A stretch of 64,000 bases of DNA from the NCBI GenBank assembly GCA_030062745.1, contig CP099839.1, positions 19,654,733 through 19,718,732 of the forward strand, written 5' to 3'. The notes under the pieces were generated by a model. It worked only from the letters and a program-made list of their open reading frames with translations, made no database searches and was not told the DNA's origin. Positions within the stretch are counted from its first letter, which is position 1, and each line of letters begins with the position of its first letter. Positions 8,996 through 64,000 of this stretch are shown here, piece after piece. The DNA is from Capitulum mitella (Eukaryota; Arthropoda; Thecostraca; Pollicipedomorpha; Pollicipedidae). The translations under genes and the position numbers were made by a program.

Positions 8996-9430
8996 GGCCG
9001 GTCCAACACTCCGCCCCGACCACTGAGCAGCTGGTCCAACACTCTGCCCCGGCCACTGAGCAGCTGGCCCAACACTCTGCCCCGGCCACTGAGCAGCCGG
9101 TCCAACACTCTGCCCCGACCACTGAGCAGCCGGTCCAACACTCCGCCCCGGCCACTGGACAGCCGGTCCAACACTCTGCCCCGGCCACTGGGCAGCCGGT
9201 CCAACATTCTGCCCCGGCCACTGGGCAGCCGGTCCAACACTCTGCCCCGGCCACTGAGCAGCCGGTCCAACATTCTGCCCCGGCCACTGAATAGTCGGTC
9301 CAACACTCCGCCCCGGCCACTGGGCAGCCGGTCCAACACTCCGCCCCGGCCACTGGGCAGCCGGTCCAACACTCTGCCCCGGCCACTGAGCAGCCGGTCC
9401 AACATTCTGCCCCGGCCACTGAACAGTCAC
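8996..9430. repeat. 33-bp minisatellite, about 13 copies
   Basis: The unit, containing CAGCCGGTCCAACACTC and GCCCCGGCCACTGAG, repeats about 13 times with few changes. Because 33 is divisible by three, several frames stay open on both strands: for example plus-strand copies of PATEQPVQHSA and minus-strand copies of WPGQSVGPAAQ. I see no splice signals, start context or flanking homology that would make any of them a gene, so it is annotated as a repeat. Confidence 0.85.
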
Positions 9431-28212: not shown

Positions 28213-31118
28213 GGGGAAGGTGGGGTAAGACGGACCAGCTAAGGTTTGAAGTCACATTTCTCGCTACCATGCTATCCAACCTCACATTGTTCATAGTCTT
28301 CTGAATGTTGATTCTTTCCTCTTTTGATACGTGGAGACGCTGGATTTGAAATTCAAGAAATTTAGGTGGTGCTTGCTCTTAAAGGGGGACGAGTCAAAAT
28401 CAGCGACAAGAAAAAACGAGGGGTAAGATGGACCACAAGTGGTCGGTCTTACCCCAACAGTGCCTGCTATCCATTTATGTTTGTATAACTTCTATACTCT
28501 TGTAAACCAAAGGAAAAAGAGCGATAAAATAACACAATAAACGTTTATTCTGTACTCAGATATGTGATAGAAAATGAACTAAAAACAAACAAGGTGCGTG
28601 TTAATACTATCGTTTGGTATAAAATGCATGTCAGCTCAGCACTTAGACGCATAGTTCACATGCGAACCACTCATCTTCCTCCCCGATTCCCGCACACATA
28701 TCATGCGCCCATTTCTTGCAAACGCTGCAGCGCACCCATCCCTCCTCTGATACTGAGCGCGTGAAGCTGTCATTGCAGTAAAGACAGAGTGTGTCAGGAT
28801 CTTCATCCTCGTCACTTGATAAGACATGGTCGCGTACTTTAGGCTTACGGTTCGTTTTGGATTTCTTTTCTTTGCTGTGTGCTTTCCTCTTTTTCGTGGG
28901 CGCCTTGGCCTGTTCTTTTTCTTCTTGCAGCATGTTTTTGTACGAAGAGCTTGTTAGCACTGCACATGCTCCCGTTATGCGACGCCTCTTCGTTTTGCCG
29001 TTCTGCGCTTGGCGGCATGCTCTCGGAACCGGGATGATGTGATGAGGTGAGACAGCGAGACCCTCGTGGCTGTTGCTTGGCAAGGGTTCATCTTTACGGG
29101 ATGAGTCTTCTGCCTCAGATGTAGGGAGCTGATGATGCGTCTGCCCTGAGCTGGCTGAAATCGTTGCTGGACTAGCAGCAGGGAGCTGGCTGCGCGGCTG
29201 CCCTGAGCTGGTTGAAGCCGTTGCTGGACCAGCAGCAGGGGCTTGTCTGCGCGGCTGCCCTGAGCTGGTTGAAGCCGTTGATGGACCAGCAGCAGGGGGT
29301 TGGCTGCGCGGCTGCTCTGAACTGGTTAAGGCAGTCGCTGGACCGACGTCCTCATCCAGTCTCTCTGTGACTTCTGCCGCAGCGAAATCTTCCTCCCCGA
29401 AGACGTCACGGTTGCACGGGAAGATGCCAGTCCGGCGGAATGCGTTAATGGCAGTCGTTGGAACTGCAGCCCGGAGATAGGCCTCTCCGAACAACTGGCC
29501 AACCTGGTAAACAGTCACCACTCTGCCGGGGTTATTTCTGAGCCGTTTCTCCACTGCTTGGCCATAGAATGTGTTCAGTGGAAGCATGAAGCCCACATCC
29601 AGAGGCTGCATCTTGTGCGTGCAGTGCGGGGGCAGCACGATCATGGTGCTGGTCATGATCACGTAGTTCGCTCTAGCCAGCTCGATGACATCCAGGTTCT
29701 TCGTGTGGGTCACGTGACCGTCCAGGATCAGGAGCACCGGATCCTCCTCGGAAGGCTTAGCATGGCTTAAGAAATGGCGGAACCACTGGGTAAAAATGTC
29801 GGTCTGCATCCAGCCCGACGGATGGCAGGCGTGTCCGGTTCCAGGTGGACAGCCATCCAGCAATTCAGGTTTCATCCGAACCCGTGGGAAGATCAGAAAC
29901 GGTGGGGTGTAGTTGCCTCCTGCAGCCATACAGACCACGGCCGTTGTGAGGATACCACGCTCCGCTGAGGTCAGGGTGCCGACCTGAGACTTCCCTTTGC
30001 GTGCGAAGACTTTGGTCGACTTTGTCTGGACAGTCGTCAGCCCCGTCTCGTCACAGTTGAAGGTGCGGTGAGCCGGAAACTTTGTTATGTCCATCTCATG
30101 CTCTAGAACATAAAAAAAACTTCCCCACGTTCACTCGATTAAATGCCCTGGCACGGGCTGCCGATGTCGCCTCAGGCACACGAAGCGCCACCTCCGGATG
30201 CCTGCGCTGGAATCCGGCCAACCAGTCTTTTCCGGCGAGACCGCTCTCCTTATTGAAGTTGTGAGTTATGTTATTCTTTTCCGCCATATGAAAGGCCAGG
30301 TATCGCACGTCTTTGGTTGTTAGTCCGAAAAACTTGCTCTCCATCATAAGGATGTGGTTTACCAGCTCCTTCTCCTGAGCTGGGCTAAACACAGTCATCC
30401 TGGAGCCTAACAGCTTATCAGTCCCCTTGGCACATTTGTTTTGATTTTTCACCCTTCGCTTCAGGGTTGTCTTGGGGACGCTGAATGCTCTGGCAGCTTT
30501 CAAAAAACCCATCGATTTTGATTTCACAGCTTCAATGGCTAACGCCATTTTCTCCTCGTCCCAACTTCCACGATCGGTTTTACGCTCGTACTTGCGCGGC
30601 ATCTGCAAAAATATTAAAAAATTAGCTTATTGAAATTTGTAGATACATAGGTACTTTAAACAAGTCACAGTGTTTTAACGAGGTTTTGTATCTGTGGGGT
30701 AAAATGGACCGCCACGGGGTAAGACGGACCACTAGTGGTCCGTCTTACCCAAAACTAAATTTTGGAAACATCATGACGTAGATACTAAATAGCCCAACAT
30801 TGCGAAAACTTGCCTGCCCTAACTTGTGCTTCTATCATTGCTCTTCACAGCAAAATACAAAGAAAAATTAATGATGCAAAAAACGCGTCTAAATTTAATC
30901 ATTCTTAGACCTCTTACCTTAGATCAGCGCGACGAAAAAGACCATTTTACTCAATAACTCAATATCCGAGCGTCCTGGAACCATTAGCCCAAGATGGCGA
31001 CTGGCGCGAAGGAAAACAAAGGTAGTTAGTGTATAGTGTAGCAGATGGCAGCAGCGGTTCAGCCGGGAAGGCTGGTGGTTCGTCTTACCCCAGTGGGCCG
31101 TCTTACCCCACCTTTCCC
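28213..31118 (-). mobile_element. pogo/Tigger-type DNA transposon, nearly intact
   Basis: The terminal inverted repeats read GGGGAAGGTGGGGTAAGACG on the left and GGGAAAGGTGGGGTAAGACG when the right end is read on the minus strand. Each is flanked by TA, the target duplication typical of Tc1/mariner/pogo. Subterminal palindromes made of head-to-head copies of GGGGTAAGACGGACC lie at about 28429-28458 and 30714-30750, and another partial copy at 31078-31092. The body holds one minus-strand transposase gene. On the minus strand an AATAAA signal (about 28549-28544) lies some 95 nt past the stop. Confidence 0.9.
28643..30608 (-). pseudogene. pogo/Tigger-type transposase with C-terminal PHD finger, one frameshift
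   Basis: The gene is read as two frames. The first (30608 to about 30119, start MQMPRKYERKTDRGSW) encodes a Psq/CENP-B-type helix-turn-helix DNA-binding region: EEKMALAIEAVKS with AARAFSVPKTTLKRRV, then AQEKELVNHI and a second HTH ending GLAGKDWLAGFQRRHPEV. The second, continuing to 28643 (483 codons from its first Met), is the DDE endonuclease: FNCDETGLT (first D), LLILDGHVTH (second D), LPPHCTHKMQPLDVGF (third D). It then has four imperfect ~22-residue repeats (ATASTSSGQPRSQ type), a lysine-rich segment and a Cys/His finger (CLYCNDSF, CSVCKKWAHDMC, CELCV). The frames meet at a run of eight T at 30119-30112, where one base fewer would join them. There is otherwise no internal stop. The break may be recent decay, an assembly error or slippage. 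Pogo-like transposases with such a C-terminal finger are known in animals. Confidence 0.85.
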
Positions 31119-47802: not shown

Positions 47803-50800
47803 CTAAGCCTTCGTATACCAGACCTCGTTGCGACGGTTCCAGAACTTCATAGGGGAATCGTAGCCAGCCCTGAACAAACATACCGGCCCAATGTTTCAGG
47901 AGACAAACATGAGTGTACAAATGAACAAAATGATCGTGGAGTGAATTCGCAACTGCATGACGAACTTGGTGTTTAATCGATGCCTCCAATTGTTGTTCAC
48001 GAATTACGTTCCGTAAAGCAATTATAATAAATCGTGTTTTTCTCTGCAAAACAGTTTCACTGCAGTTTCCTCCACCGTAAAGAACAGCACAGCGTGGATC
48101 AATACAGAAACTAAAATATGATTTCATGTACGCAAAATGTCAATGTATTGAAGCGTGCCAGCCGGTTGTAATGAAGACATGGGGCGGGGACGGGGGAGTA
48201 AAAAAGAAAAAGTACAAAGAGAATAATGAGAATGTGCTCGTCGGCATGGATGTATCTTTTGTCACCGTCTTTTTGTTGTTTTTTTCAAAACATAAACAAA
48301 CACGTCCAAAACTCAACATCACGCAACAGACAGCTCTGAAGACTCCTTAAATCCGGGAAGGCTCCCCTCCACCCATGAATCGTCAGGAAGATGGGCCTCG
48401 TGGTAGGGAGTGAGCAAAACATTTGCAGTGATGAAATGTATCTTCCTTACGGGATTCTTCGAAAAGGTGAGTTTTCGTATCGAGCGTGCAGTGCCCACCA
48501 CACCCATCCAACCAGCTACCCACCGGTAGAACTTGGAGAAGTCGAAATCGCTGTCGCCCTCAGCTATGGCATCCTGCTTCAGCTTCTGTGCCATTCGCTC
48601 CCAGTCGGCTTCGTCCGGGTATCCGCCCTCACGACTGAGGAAAACAACACGAAAAACATGTATCGACAACCCAGAACGTGCCTTCGCGACCTCAAACCTG
48701 GTTGAAGTGCTTGCATCTTTGCCCCATCCTATCTCAGCCTTCAAGAAATTAAGTGTTCGACAAAGTACTGGATACATGTTCCAGCCACATTAGATGAAGA
48801 CAGACGCTACCATGTGCTGATACGACGTTTCCGTAATTCGGGGCATAAAAAGCTTCACAAGGCAGCAGAATTATCAGCCAAGGCTTACCGCAGCATACCA
48901 ACTTTGGACGTTGATAAAGATAGAAATACACAATACAGATAGCCATGATATCTGGCATCATAAAGGCAGCGTTTGCGTCTCTAATGCGTCTTAATCAAAC
49001 TTTCCTAATATAGGGTTCGGACAGAGTCCCGGACACATTTCGGTCATGATCACTCAGCATTGTGATCAGCATCGGTGTTATTTACACGATTTTGCTCGAG
49101 TGCTGATATTCACGGGGCTGCGCAACAAGTGTCTTACATGTACGTTAGACATGTACTGCGCACGTTTACGTGTATATGTCTCTCTATGAATGCGTCAACT
49201 CTCAGCTCTGGTGTGTCATGCGTCATCTCGATAACGATAACCTTACCTCTATATGGCAATAGTAATACGATGTCACACAGAGCAATGGGAAGTAACCAAT
49301 CCAGTATTCACTGCCCATATCTCAACTCAAAACCTTTAACATTTCAACATTTTCATCATCTCAAACCCTTCAAAAAACCTACTCGGCCCAATATCCTTCG
49401 TTTCACTTCACCGATATCAATATTCCAAATAAAACAAGTTTTTGCAAAGACCACGCCAAGACATAAAAATAGGGTTAGTTCCAGCTCCATGTTTTGATAT
49501 AACTACAAATCAAAACGCCTAGAAAATCTTAAACGCATAAACTTTCGAAGGATTTTACCTCAAATCCATGCATGCCGTTTTAATGTTTCAAATTGCAAAA
49601 TACTACAAATTTCTTTTTTGGTTATTCAGAAAATTGGCTCCTAAAACCGCTACATGTTACTTTCTTCCAAAAAACTACATGGTTCTGTTTGGCTCAAAGC
49701 TCGCGAAACTCATTTTTACACGTGACGATACTGAATATCCTGATCTCGTTCAACGCAAAGCTCCAAGCTCGAAGCCATCTCAGAATGCCATGAAGAAAAA
49801 TTCGATATTCAGTAATTATTTTGTAGTATTAACATCTTCAGCGGTGGACACAACCTGTGAGAAATGCTGAATCATGCATATTATCATTTTCTACACTTTT
49901 CCCGTTTCGACACCACCTCTGCTCAACCGCAATCTTAAATCCTACACCAAGAAAACACGGGGCACACAGACGTACACTATACGTTCCATTCGAATATTTC
50001 TGGAGGAAAGGATGGTTTTTTTTTCGCGACAGCATATCTCGCGCAACTGCTATTACGATACGTCGGACCCAGTGTTCGCACACTTGTACTTTAGCTGCTA
50101 AATGACACCTAGCGAAGATCTTATTTTCATTCCATAAAAATGAAACTCCATAAAAAATCTCATCGCCTTATTTCAGTAATACCTCTAAATAACCGTCATT
50201 TTAAATCGCCAAGCGTCCTTTAATCGCTACCACTTGCGAATACTCTCAATGCAATGACGTCTCATCATTCCTAGAAATCGCATTTCTTAATCCAAGCCTG
50301 CTCACCATTCATCACACAGCAGACAACATTCAACACAGTGCACCTAAGACTCTGGCGCCATAAATGTATCACATGCGTAGTATTTTTCTTGCTCATCATG
50401 TAAAATAGCCAATATTTATCCATAGGCTCGCCGAACCGCGTCGAAATACAGCTCATTGAAACTCCGTATATTCAAGCTTTCGAGAAGGGAAAATGGATGT
50501 TAAAAAAACAAGACAACGGAAAATGATAAAAGAACTGATGTTGTCGAGGGATACGCCAAACTGATATATTCCAGTATGCTTCCATTTTACTGAAATCACA
50601 TATTCTACTAGAAATTATTTCAATGTACAAAACAAAAACTTTCATGACATGACACCACGGATCCCAAAGACACCCAACTGTAGAACAGGAAATAACTGAC
50701 ACTGGTGATGTTTCGTAGCAAAGTGCTTCAGTTTTCTGATCATTCAAGACTTTCCAACATGAGAAATATTTAACAAGCACACAGAGGCCTACTGTTCATG

Positions 50801-51272
50801 ACGACAGCTGTTTCTTCTTTCTGTATACTTTGCTCATCACTCACCTTTTCCTCTGTGTTAAATTCACATTCTTGGCGTGATATTAGTTCAAACTCCTAGA
50901 TCGAGGAAGGACAAACTATGCGCCGGAAGTGCACGGGTAATACCTTACGTAACTGCTTATCATGATTGGATTGTGGATCAAATGTGACTTAGCAACAATC
51001 TGCTGCCCAAATAATGCCTAGAGTATACAAGTTCGCGTCTTAGTCATTGAGTTCGGCACTTTCAGCACTTAATGAGCCTGAGTTATGCTGGTAACAAATG
51101 TTTCAGAGTACGGTGGCGAATGGGGTAAAATCTGAGTAGAACACTGAAAGAACAAAACAGAGAATCATCAATACCATGTAGAGCTTAGTCATTGGTTAGT
51201 GGGTTACAATTTATCATTTCCCTATCCCTCAGTCATCTCGAGAACAAAAGGTCGGATTTAAGTTATATACAT

Positions 51273-51328
<56 letters not shown>

Positions 51329-54300
51329 CAAATACTCATCAGTACTCCACGACCCCGAGGACGCATTTATAATTGTTTCAGCCATAAGTTCTCAAAATAA
51401 TAACAGCCTGCACCTGTTTTGTTGATGCAGAGTTTCTCGTTACTGGGATATGTTACCTGATGCACTGTTTATGAAGGGAACTTAAAAAAACAACAAGAAA
51501 TTGCATTACATTACATTAATTACTAAATTTCGTACCACCTGGCAATATTTCTGTCATCAGGCACTCAATCGAAAATGAAATTGCGATGAATCGTCTGACC
51601 TGATACGGAAAAACCGCTGTCATAAAAAGGCTTACTGTTACACATAATACTTGAATTACAAAAAATTATTTCCTAAGACTGTTTAGACTTCTGCCTTATA
51701 CCCTTCAGTGGTTGCCTTCTCGCGGTAAAAAACGATCCCAAAACATTGGTAATATATGTCACACGCAACTGTGCAGCGCATATTTGGATATTCCTTCACG
51801 TAGATAAAACTAGCACGCGTCTAACTTACCTTCAGCGACACAGCATGAGCAAGACGTTGGTGTCATGCATCTCCTTTCCGTTCTTGGATCAATGGCTGGA
51901 AAGGGCATTTCGACCCCTCTGTATGTAAGCTGCACCAGTGCCACGAATACTCCAGGCTTACCAGCATTGCGTGTTAAGTAGGGTTAAGTAAGTAAGGAAA
52001 AGGTTACTGTAAAAGCCTCCTGACCGGCCGGCCGCCGTTTGATAGCGCGCTGACGGCCCTCGCCTAATTTACGCGGCGATCACGGTGGGCTCCGGACTCA
52101 CACTGCGATCGCGGTGAGCTCCGAACTTACACGGCGATCACGATGAGCTCCGGACTTACACGGCGATCACGGTGAGCTCCGGACTTACACGGCGACCACG
52201 GTGGGCTCCGGACTTACACGGCGATCACGGTGAGCTCCGGACTTACACGGCGATCACGGTGAGCCCCGGACTTACACGGCGATCACGGTGGGCTCCGGAC
52301 TTACACGGCTATCACGGTGGGCTCCAGACTTACACGGCGATCACGGTGAGCTCCGGACTCACACTGCGATCACGGTGAGCTCCGGACTTACACGGCGATC
52401 ACGGTGAGCTCCGGACTTACACGGCGATCACGGTGAGCTCCGGACTTACACGGCGATCACGGTGAGCTCCGGACTTACACAGCGATCACGGTGGCTCCGG
52501 ACTCACACTGCGATCACGGTGAGCTCCGGACTTACACGGCGATCACGGTGAGCCCCGGACTTACACGGCGATCACGGTGAGCTCCGGACTTACACGGCGA
52601 TCACGGTGAGCTCCGGACTTACACGGCGATCACGGTGAGCTCCGGACTCACACGGCGATCACGGTGAGCTCCGGACTTACACAGCGATCACGGTGAGCTC
52701 CGGACTTACAGGGCGATCACGGTGAGCTCCGGACGGCTCTGGAGGAAGACGGTCGGGTCGGATGGCGCCGGAGGGCTCGCCTGGAACTCTTCGTTGACGT
52801 AGAAGCACATGGTGAATTTGCGCGTCGAGTCGGTGACTGGCTCCCACATCATGGTCACCGGGCTCGTCATCGCCATGGACTGGCCTGAGGAAGACACAAG
52901 GACTGTCAGCGCTCAGCCGGGCGGAACGCCGCCCACCGGTGCAGAACAGGAACACTTGTAACACCAAAAAGGCACGAAACGTACGGGTACACATTAATTC
53001 ACGAATCACCAATTGCCAAAAGACAGAAACACTTAAAAAAGCATATAAAGCTTACATTATTAATATTCTCAGACACAATGGGCGCCTCACCATTCTCGTT
53101 GTTTCCAGTGATGTAGCCGTACAGCCTCATAAATAAACCTCTCCTACCCCCCATGCCTGTAATGTCAGTGACGTTGCTGGTGCAGACCCATTGTCTTGCT
53201 GGGTACAGCCGTTCTTCGTACGTCTGCAACGACACAGCGCAGTCTAAGGCGAAAAAATGACAACTCACTGTTGCATTCATTACTTCTCAACGGCTGGGAG
53301 TGTCCACAGTAATGAAATCAGACCGTATGTGCGTGGCTCTGAGGGCTTACATCACTGTAAACATACGCTGCAGTCTAAAAAAGTAACGGCAGTGTATGCC
53401 ACAGAAAAGTTTTCGAAGCGATGCGGTGAAAAAGAACGATGAGTTGCATCTAGCTGCGGCTTATTTTCCGGTGACAGAGATGCTATTGTGAGGAGTGACG
53501 GCACGAGCGCCGCAGACCTTGTTGGAGTTGATTGGGGTGAACGGGGCCGTCTCCGTCTCGGCGAACGTGGAACGGATCTGGGCTCCGGCGCTGCTCAGTC
53601 GGTTCCTGATGGACGCCAGGAAACCGGGGCTCTGAAACAAAACCACATCAGCCGAGTCAAACGGCGCCAAGTCCAGCGCACCACGCGACATCGGCAGCAG
53701 CCTCACCGGACTGGAAACACTGTGCCAAAAGGGTGTGCGCGGCGAGCACCAAACCACTGAACGTGAACTCCCGTTTCTCAGCCCCTGAAATAGGCGTGTC
53801 GCGACGGTATATCACAATATAGCACCACCATGGTGTTCACCGTCGTTAATATCAGTAAAACCAAAAGCTACACTGCAGACATTTGCGTTAAAAAACGAGA
53901 GATTACACAATGAGATCGCCGGTTGTAACTCGATAACCTTAATTTTCAGACACGGGACAACGACCTCCTGCGACAGTTTCGTGCCCAACGGACAGCGTGC
54001 GGTTACTAGAATGCAGTCCTCAGAATGTCAGAACTTCGTTTTCGTATCTACAGGATGCGAAACCCCGCCGGAAGTGGTCTGTTTGTTTTCCGGCAGCTTT
54101 AACTTGAACGCTGCGGCAAGAACGAGCGCCTGGGCATCACCACTGGAGCAGTTACATCAGCATCCCTGCTCGCGATCCTGATTCGTCCACTCCAGTGATG
54201 CTCATACGCGTCCAACCTGCGGCAAAATCGCAACCTTACTTTCGTGCAACAGATCAGGGCGAGCCGCTGTGCGCGGTAAGCCGCCGCTCACCTCTTGCGC

Positions 54301-54348
54301 CTTCGTCAGGCCCACCAGGGTCAGCAGAAGTGCCGCTGCGGTGCGCAT
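47803..54348 (-). CDS. Secreted SOUL/HEBP2-family haem-binding protein, six exons, complete
   Basis: Exons on the minus strand: 54348-54292, 53631-53518, 53223-53091, 52884-52710, 48634-48524, 47869-47803. All introns are GT-AG, phases match, and the 657 nt encode 218 residues. Exon 1 is a signal peptide (MRTAAALLLTLVGLTKAQ). Exon 2 ends ETAPFTPINSNK and exon 3 continues TYEERLYPARQWVC, with LYGYITGNNENG just before the next junction. Exon 4 has MAMTSPVTM, then FTMCFYVNEEF and PPAPSDPTVFLQSRPELTVI. Exon 5 has EADWERMAQKLKQDA and exon 6 ends AGYDSPMKFW, NRRNEVWYTKA, stop. This order is diagnostic of the SOUL family, whose members bind haem or related tetrapyrroles; the leader implies secretion or lumenal location. 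Length is normal for a secreted member. Oddity: the exon 4 donor (52709) has been amplified into the 29-bp array that follows in intron 4. Ligand and role are inferred from the family. Confidence 0.92.
48635..52709 (-). other. Intron 4 of the SOUL gene (about 4.1 kb)
   Basis: The intron begins with the 29-bp minisatellite (52709 to about 52070) and then is AT-rich ordinary sequence. It contains a (CA)n(TA)n microsatellite at 51271-51327. Several frames of 60-140 codons (e.g. 49075-49497 plus) are not recognisable and are taken as noise. Confidence 0.8.
51271..51327. repeat. (CA)n-(TA)n compound microsatellite
   Basis: About ten AC dinucleotides are followed by about 18 AT dinucleotides. Confidence 0.9.
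52070..52732. repeat. 29-bp minisatellite, about 23 copies, built from an exon/intron junction
   Basis: On the minus strand each unit is GTAAGTCCGGAGCTCACC plus GTGATCGCCGT. The last exon 4 bases are CCGGAGCTCACCGTGATCGC plus CCT before its GTAAGT donor, so each unit duplicates the last ~20 coding bases and the splice donor. Most copies keep GTAAGT; a few have GTGAGT, also a valid donor. The part of exon 4 from about 52732 to 52710 is itself the first unit. Confidence 0.95.
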
Positions 54349-62269: not shown

Positions 62270-62946
62270 TCTATTTATTTGCAAAATATGCTACTTTTTC
62301 AAGCTTTTTAAGAGTCTGTTTATTTGCAAAATATGCTACTTTTTCAAACTTTTTGAGGTCCCTGGTATTACTTATGTCTGTGCAAGCCAATTCTGCCATT
62401 TTTTACCCATTCTGAGTAATTCATCGTCGATTTTGACAGTGGTACATTTTGGCTCACTACAGTTATTCGTGACCTGGCCTCAGGTCAATAGCTGGAAGTC
62501 ATTGATACTTTGCCCAATGACGTTAACTAGACGTCTGCTTCACTCCACACTAAAAATTGTTTTGAAATATTCCGTCAATTTCCAAAAAAACGGCGACATG
62601 TGTTAAAAATGGGCTTGACCTTAAGTCAATGACCTGGAAAACTCCGAAAAATCTGAGATAGCGGATTTGTTGCATCTATCACGATCACTAACCCCTGAGA
62701 GTATGATTGAGATATCTTGTTTAGCGAAAAAGTTCGAGGGCACTAAACTTTTTTGGGCATAGGTTCGTTTGACCTGACTTAGGTCAGGCACCGGACCTAA
62801 CCTGAGGTCAAAATTTTGACACGAGATGTAAAATGATGGAGCAAAAGGTACACGAAGTTTCGTGGCTCTGTGTTTGTTGGTTCTCTTGCAATCCCAGAAA
62901 AACCTCAGGGGGGGGGGCAGTCACCTGCCCCCTAGTCGGGGACGGG
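62270..62946 (-). mobile_element. TTAA element family 1, copy 4 (inverted, truncated)
   Basis: On the minus strand it begins after TTAA (62950-62947) with CCCGTCCCCGAC and a subterminal hairpin (GGGGGCAG, GTGA, CTGCCCCC). It follows the other copies for about 680 bp, then stops near 62270. A ~44-bp segment (TTTATTTGCAAAATATGCTA) is directly repeated at the broken end (62272-62361). Confidence 0.8.
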
Positions 62947-62950
62947 TTAA

Positions 62951-64000
62951 TGCTCACCGTGCTATTTGGGGTTGTGACAACATCGACACACGTGGTCGAC
63001 TTTTAGAACGCTTGTTGAACGACAAATTTCTGTGCCTTTTAAGCACTGGAGCCAAAACACATTTTACTTTGCCTACCGGACAAACATCGGCTCTAGACCT
63101 GAGCATCTGTAGCCCACAGGTGATGCAGTACTTTATGTTGTCGGTGGATGACGACCCACGCGGAAGCGATCACTTGCCAGTATGGCTGCACTATAAGGAC
63201 GGTGCCGTGCTTGGCTCAAGGCCACCACGGTGGTTGCTTTGACATGCTGACTGGGGCCAGTTTGAGGCACAGGTTGAATTAGCCGTGCGTTGGCGTCAGC
63301 CGGAGGAGCGGCCGATGTCGGTGGACGAATTTACCGAGATGATCGTGCAGTCAGCCGGACAAAGCATCCCCAAAACATCTGGTGCTCCCCGCCGCCCACC
63401 AGTGCCATGGTAGACGAAGGTGTGTAGAGACGCCATTCGTACACGCAGGCGAGCTTACAGGGCATTCGATCGTTGTAGTACACTTGATAACCTGGTCGCT
63501 TTTAGACAAGCGAGGGCCTCGGCACGTCGTGTTATCTTGGAGGCGAAACGGCAGTCATGGCGAGAGTATGTGGGCGGCCTGAACCGCTCCACCCGCACTT
63601 CGGAGGTCTGGGACCGCATCAAGAGGATAGCGGGCCGACACTGCTCTACGCCGCTGCCCGTGCTGCGCGTGCACGGCCATGACGTGTTTCACCCTGCTGA
63701 AGTTGCCAACGAGATCGGCCGCGCCCTCGCAGAGCGCTGCCGGGGTGGCGGCGCCGATCCTGAGTCTGTGCGCCACAAAACTCGCTGTGAGCGGTCGCCA
63801 GTAAACTTTTATACCTCTGAGCGGCACTCGTATAACGAAGCGTTCACAATGGCTGAACTCAGGTCAGCAATATCGTCTCTGCGCAGTGTGTCGGAGGGCC
63901 CAGACGAAGTGCATAACGATATGCTTCGACACCTTCCACATTGCGCGGTTGAGACATTGCTGACTATGTTCAACGCCATTTGGACCAATGGCGAGTTCCC
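62951..64000 (+). pseudogene. Non-LTR retrotransposon (Jockey/CR1-like) endonuclease-RT fragment
   Basis: The frame starts in the endonuclease domain (NAHRAIWGCDNIDTRGRLLE, then SALDLSICSP and GSDHLPVWL) and continues through the linker (IRTRRRAYRAFDRCSTLDNL, RVILEAKRQSWREYVGGLN, VWDRIKRIAG) into the start of the reverse transcriptase (LRSVSEGPDEVHNDMLRHLP, then FNAIWTNGEFP). It runs off the window. Two in-frame stops, TGA at 63240-63242 and TAG at 63411-63413, replace what is probably Trp at the second site. The 5' end is cut exactly at the TTAA of the family 1 element. The copy cannot make a functional protein. Confidence 0.85.

Follow-up and report, generated by a model that had tools for sequence, protein, structure and literature searches.

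How did an intron of a SOUL gene in Capitulum mitella come to be filled with near-identical copies of a splice donor, which of these donors is used, and what do the other copies mean for the gene? The locus lies in a stretch of 64,000 nt (contig CP099839.1, positions 19,654,733 to 19,718,732), referred to here as the window. A minus-strand model of six exons, all open and separated by introns of the GT..AG type, yielded a protein of 218 residues, which is predicted to be a SOUL/HEBP heme-binding protein, in agreement with the SOUL gene named in a first-pass annotation of this DNA: the Pfam SOUL profile matched over 170 residues (1.1e-43, 149.7 bits, cut-off 27), and the best match in the PDB was HEBP1 (2hva, 2.3e-25). 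The features of the gene and of its array are listed below in window coordinates, with a slash marking a splice boundary and the evidence for an exon in brackets.

54292-54348, minus: SOUL exon 1, coding part, signal-peptide-like (start codon chosen by the analyst)
53518-53631, minus: SOUL exon 2
53091-53223, minus: SOUL exon 3 (HEBP1 alignment)
52710-52884, minus: SOUL exon 4, 175 nt, donor CCT/GTAAGT (HEBP1 alignment, Pfam, paralog intron position)
52710-52734, minus: tail of exon 4, 25 nt, founder of the repeat, encoding ..PELTVIAL
52706-52734, minus: first array copy, equal to the end of exon 4 plus GTAA
52069-52734, minus: 29-bp minisatellite of 23 copies, 22 of them within intron 4
52475-52502, minus: the sole 28-nt copy
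52069-52097, minus: last array copy, degenerate donor CGC/GTAAAT
48524-48634, minus: SOUL exon 5, beginning TCGTGAGGGC (..L/REGGYP; HEBP1 alignment)
47803-47869, minus: SOUL exon 6, up to the stop codon (HEBP1 alignment)

In this model exon 4 runs to 52710, where it is interrupted in phase 2, and the reading continues with exon 5 from 48634. The alignment with HEBP1 (VIAL/REGG, PELTVIALREGGYPDEAD aligned with GITVYSTQFGGYAKEAD) crosses this junction without a gap, which confirms the exon end first annotated at 52710; a paralog whose intron has this position but lacks an array agrees with it. Since the founder stretch encodes PELTVIAL, which is homologous to HEBP1, the intronic copies derive from the exon; judged from this homology, the array grew from the exon into the intron. 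A SOUL family search of the genome gave nine matches. The C3 paralog has an intron at the same place (...RPALRAIAL/KKGGYPD, donor GCCCT/GTGAGT), and no tandem repeat was found in the 363 nt of this intron; in the C2 paralog the exon ends ...TFVVR with the donor CCG/GTGAGT, and no array was present in the stretch examined. The first-pass annotation had noted CCCT at the exon and CCGT in the copies, and CCGT is indeed the form in most copies; because the C3 paralog also reads GCCCT/GTGAGT, CCCT is probably the ancestral form, and CCGT would then have arisen within the array. We also considered that the birth of the array might have upgraded a weak GTAAAT donor, an idea weakened by the two paralogs, which already carry G at +5 (GTGAGT).

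Tandem Repeats Finder (TRF) placed the minisatellite at 52069-52734 with a period of 29, 23.0 copies, 93% matches, 0% indels and a score of 1164, which bears out the approximately 23 copies of a 29-bp unit counted before; the span given at that time, 52070-52884, covers the array and takes in the rest of exon 4 as well. The minus-strand unit is GTCCGGAGCTCACCGTGATCGCCGTGTAA. It had been described as the end of exon 4 plus GTAAGT, which identifies the right unit, and its precise composition is GTAA preceded by 25 exon bases; the donor hexamer is completed by the first two bases of the next copy, GT. A consensus donor had been claimed for every copy, and we found GTRAGT in 22 of the 23 (GTAAGT 18, GTGAGT 4), 21 of these downstream of the authentic donor, with GTAAAT in the last copy. 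Twenty-two copies are 29 nt long and one is 28 nt; the former show a mean pairwise difference of 6.4% and are invariant in 17 of 29 columns, and the exon-tail copy has one mismatch in 29 to the array consensus. All 22 occurrences of GTRAGT inside the array are on the minus strand; outside it, the window (GC 0.505, CpG ratio 0.985) has 19 on the plus strand and 23 on the minus strand.

The unit pattern with up to 3 mismatches gave 22 matches in the window, all inside the array, compared with 0 in 100 shuffles. When the whole genome (477,042,490 bases, 16 contigs) was searched with a 161-nt exon/array query, by a method that skips simple repeats and very common words, only the SOUL array was matched, in 7 pieces; the unit is thus not spread elsewhere in the genome, whereas wide occurrence would, by the first-pass annotation, have refuted its proposal. 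Viral and prokaryote contig collections gave 0 exact matches each to the unit. Higher-order repeats were not detected in the array, whose lag differences did not fall below those of 5000 shuffles (lowest p 0.059), and two stretches of the SOUL gene searched for mirage-like direct repeats at its other junctions contained none of at least 16 nt. Neither the Rfam scan nor the tRNA scan of the window returned a match.

Several other features were observed in the window. Pogo/Tc5-like transposase pieces (HTH_psq, HTH_Tnp_Tc5, DDE_1) lie at 28646-30626 on the minus strand, with a 57-bp tandem repeat at 29137-29344 inside this region; a LINE-like endonuclease reading frame occupies 62832-63239 on the plus strand (Exo_endo_phos_2, 3.7e-9); and a 33-bp repeat of 13 copies is present at 8997-9426, in reading frames open on both strands.

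We computed the product of each later donor. With exon 5 joined to any one of the 22 later donors of the array, the protein would have 160 instead of 218 residues and end LTVIAL, so that the addition of CTG TAA and the end after VIAL foreseen in the first-pass annotation hold for every one of them. The premature stop lies approximately 136 nt or more upstream of the last junction (recounted), and at such a distance nonsense-mediated decay is expected. Donors were scored with a donor matrix, giving 7.3 for the authentic donor, 5.56-7.19 for the array donors and 2.43 for the last copy; exon and array donors score alike, and strength alone therefore fails to explain the choice of the first donor. 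By the same matrix, eight lone sites elsewhere in intron 4 equal or exceed the authentic donor, and lone minus-strand pseudo-donors stronger than it include AAG/GTAAGT at 51829 and AAG/GTGAGT at 50844. The first donor would be favored for ordinary reasons, being transcribed first and bordering the exon, and we infer that it is the one used.

Is the SOUL array alone in this genome? Three GTAAGT motifs spaced 15-45 nt apart were found at 238 places, against 517 for the pattern read backwards; the corresponding numbers were 44 against 45 for GTAAGT preceded by G and 60 against 39 for GTAAGT preceded by T, all of these being coarse counts of places rather than of arrays, in which one array is counted repeatedly. 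The possibility that donor sequences are hot spots for the birth of arrays received no support from the hexamer counts and their backward controls. After simple sequence, AT-rich or irregularly spaced matches and a dispersed repeat had been left out, the upstream edge was examined in 25 arrays among the matches listed (SOUL, the 14 of L047-L060 from the plain GTAAGT pattern and the 10 of L061-L070 from all three patterns). Among these, 3 of the 25 GTAAGT arrays (SOUL, chitin deacetylase and mu-class GST) have a proven start at an exon end, a share that stands without a matched control. The two further arrays and one candidate are as follows.

C5:27003416-27003720 region (L057): chitin deacetylase array, exon-anchored, 30-bp unit, 9.5 copies
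C14:21573300-21574000 (L063): mu-class GST array, exon-anchored, 45-bp unit, 3.9 copies
L047, 2564-3611 (C1:5569563-5570610): ERM-like coiled-coil frame ending GTAAGT, then an array with a 33-bp unit and 27.6 copies

The chitin deacetylase exon (...GGCPTSQYPG) has a tail identical to the array unit at 23 of 24 positions; it matched 5zns at 2.2e-7 alone and at 4e-11 when joined over a 606-nt intron to the next exon, VWEIPL, and three of five later donors would add sequence in frame without a stop. In the mu-class GST the exon (...RELDLLEGV) is identical to the unit at 31 of 39 positions, including 19 of the last 20, with a Pfam GST_N match of 9.9e-7 and a further match that improves from 3.9e-16 for the exon to 1.9e-35 when it is joined to SQDLRGWW; here the two later donors would lengthen the exon by 45 or 90 nt, equal to 15 or 30 in-frame residues, with no stop. 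The protein is continuous across the intron at the SOUL, chitin deacetylase and mu-class GST arrays. L047 is possibly a fourth, ERM-like exon-anchored array: its edge matched ERM_helical at 3.2e-5 but with 24.4 bits against a cut-off of 40, no PDB match was obtained at 0.01, and a motif search for the next exon gave nothing. The other 21 of the 25 edges had no accepted homology; the coding-like edges of L055, L056 and L069 were rejected because no homolog was found (best PDB match 0.45, none and none; Pfam none), and the weak, sub-threshold Pfam matches of L050 and L051 were taken as chance. Two other repeats were seen on the way, namely a dispersed repeat with three GGTAAGT sites (GGTAAGTGGTCGTCGCTTCCGAG...) at approximately 11 places among the G-preceded matches, e.g. 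C2:4561734, C5:30926274 and C7:15614487, and a 36-bp repeat at C2:15034152-15034938, whose unit contains CTCCAG, a short stretch and GTAAGT, resembling a tiny exon, and which reads as an open repeat on the opposite strand too. A far-reaching interpretation is that donor-anchored minisatellites recur in this genome, outside lancelets, with repeat number acting as a heritable splicing dial that switches decay in SOUL and varies the protein in GST; taken as a whole, we regard this as rather unlikely.

The explanation that we prefer, and consider likely, is a donor-anchored minisatellite of the type described in lancelets as mirages, arising by neutral duplication, with the original donor in use and a slight leak to decayed isoforms. 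A stretch straddling the exon 4 boundary, with 25 nt of the exon and 4 nt of intron 4, would have undergone tandem duplication into the intron and grown to 23 copies, presumably through slippage or unequal exchange. Such growth would be tolerated because the 5'-most copy keeps both the coding sequence and the donor and all additions are intronic. The authentic donor at 52709 would serve nearly all mRNA, and the occasional use of a later one, which always adds CTG-TAA, would give a truncated and decay-prone transcript and lower output slightly at most. This neutral reading is supported by the array-free paralogs, by the two further exon-anchored arrays, by the GTAAGT counts, which do not clearly exceed those of the pattern read backwards, and by published cases: lancelet mirages are reported to leave regular splicing undisturbed (PMC3087553, PMC3902484), and retention of one unit at the human ABCA7 VNTR amounts to 2 ± 1% (PMC5954066). 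The similar strength of the donors and the T-preceded arrays, which exceed their control, count against it.

It is improbable in our view that the array competes for U1 snRNP, so that a sizeable share of transcripts, dependent on its length, uses a later donor or skips exon 5 and copy number sets the dose of the protein; the first-pass annotation had suggested that copy number may change donor competition, isoforms or mRNA decay. Such a role would fit the 21 GTRAGT donors of similar score downstream of the authentic one, the truncation of all later products at one codon well before the last junction, and the ABCA7 VNTR, where exon 19 skipping rises and expression falls with length (PMC5954066); it is at odds with the undisturbed splicing reported for lancelet mirages, for which RT-PCR argues against a large effect (PMC3087553, PMC3902484), with one-unit retention at ABCA7, described as independent of length (PMC5954066), and with the eight lone pseudo-donors of intron 4, such as that at 51829, whose scores equal or exceed that of the authentic donor.

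Less probable still is that the copies pair with one another in the pre-mRNA and hide the array donors, leaving the authentic donor open through its C at -2, where most copies have G. In favor of this idea, the array RNA folds far better than shuffled sequence (z -15.9, 0 of 20), and in 11 of 12 folding settings the authentic donor was predicted to be more open than the inner copies (rank 1-4 of 23); with local spans of at least 100, its 9-mer was approximately 5-19 times more open than the inner median. Changing C to G at -2 of the authentic donor reduced its predicted openness from 0.0312 to 0.0028 and abolished the advantage, and the reverse change opened the inner copies by a median of 6.3-fold over 21. 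However, at the shortest span the 9-mer kept only a twofold advantage (rank 4 of 23), and the hexamer, the twelfth setting, had none (rank 13 of 23). The four other true donors of the gene have predicted openness of 0 to 0.0014, below that of the exon 4 donor, which argues that openness is not needed for use. Arrays of shuffled units, moreover, folded equally well in 33 of 100 cases when composition was kept and in 4 of 100 when dinucleotides were kept, and 36 of 75 exonic changes also raised the predicted openness of the donor.

It is very improbable that the array merely marks a single haplotype or a decaying gene, without any lasting role: the analysis is based on one assembly and two paralogs lack an array, but the gene has six open exons, GT..AG splice sites and a SOUL match over 170 residues. 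That an ordinary intronic minisatellite happens to touch the exon is extremely improbable, for all that the window holds eight minisatellite-like arrays (analyst's selection) and that, under random placement, 0.053 overlaps with the five donors are expected for the SOUL array (0.149 for the eight arrays together), since the exon tail is itself the first copy and encodes conserved SOUL residues, and chitin deacetylase and the mu-class GST carry arrays of the same design.

Near-identical donor arrays are natural experiments on how the spliceosome chooses among equal 5' splice sites, and also inform how introns lengthen or originate by tandem duplication. As the outcome of leakage differs by gene, with a stop in SOUL and in-frame additions in GST, the arrays lend themselves to comparison by RNA-seq and by length, and at least three arrays in one animal genome would broaden the phenomenon past the lancelet and human cases. 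Growth anchored on a splice site had been called unusual in the first-pass annotation, a judgment that does not hold in view of the published lancelet mirages and ABCA7 VNTR and of at least two more arrays in this genome. By title and abstract, we recognized no donor-anchored array in another invertebrate in the literature, which is weak evidence of absence.

The lancelet mirages (Adh3, the globins BflGb6 and BflGb9, PGBD5 and TnC; PMC3087553, PMC3902484), all cephalochordate in the cited passages, are described there as tandem repeats that span exon-intron boundaries, many with splice signals, and are unstable in length. The SOUL array resembles them in a unit that spans the boundary (25 nt of exon 4 plus GTAA), in the splice signals of its copies, in an edge copy that is the real, intact exon with the others intronic, and in copies that are near-identical inside and diverged at an edge. 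It differs from the globin mirages, with their units of 150-160 bp, in its 29-bp unit and 23 copies, and in being known from the sequence of one assembly, whereas splicing and length variation have been measured for lancelet mirages. Lancelets, with about 41% GC and 19 or 20 chromosomes, do not fit the GC of the window or the 16 contigs of the present genome. The ABCA7 intron 18 VNTR, as reported (PMC5954066), has a 25-bp unit, 23.7 copies in the reference and a unit GT equal to the exon 18 donor. At both loci every unit offers the donor of the exon, and the next donor gives a disrupted transcript, predicted to be truncating at SOUL and out of frame at ABCA7; however, the ABCA7 array begins at the donor GT with no exon bases, whereas 25 of the 29 bases of the first SOUL copy are exonic, and in the sources cited polymorphism, skipping and expression effects are established for the ABCA7 VNTR only. 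Internal tandem repeats at exon-intron boundaries in human segmental duplications likewise affect gene structure, but the cited passages tie them to novel introns or elongated exons (PMC2812944), whereas the intron and the exon length of SOUL appear unchanged. The 38-bp repeats of TERT intron 6 are also an intronic minisatellite with pairing RNA; unlike the SOUL array, they are described as lying more than 1 kb from the junctions and are not built from a splice site (PMC3948165). Collectively, these comparisons place the SOUL array in a known kind of repeat, and the new part is its recurrence in one genome.
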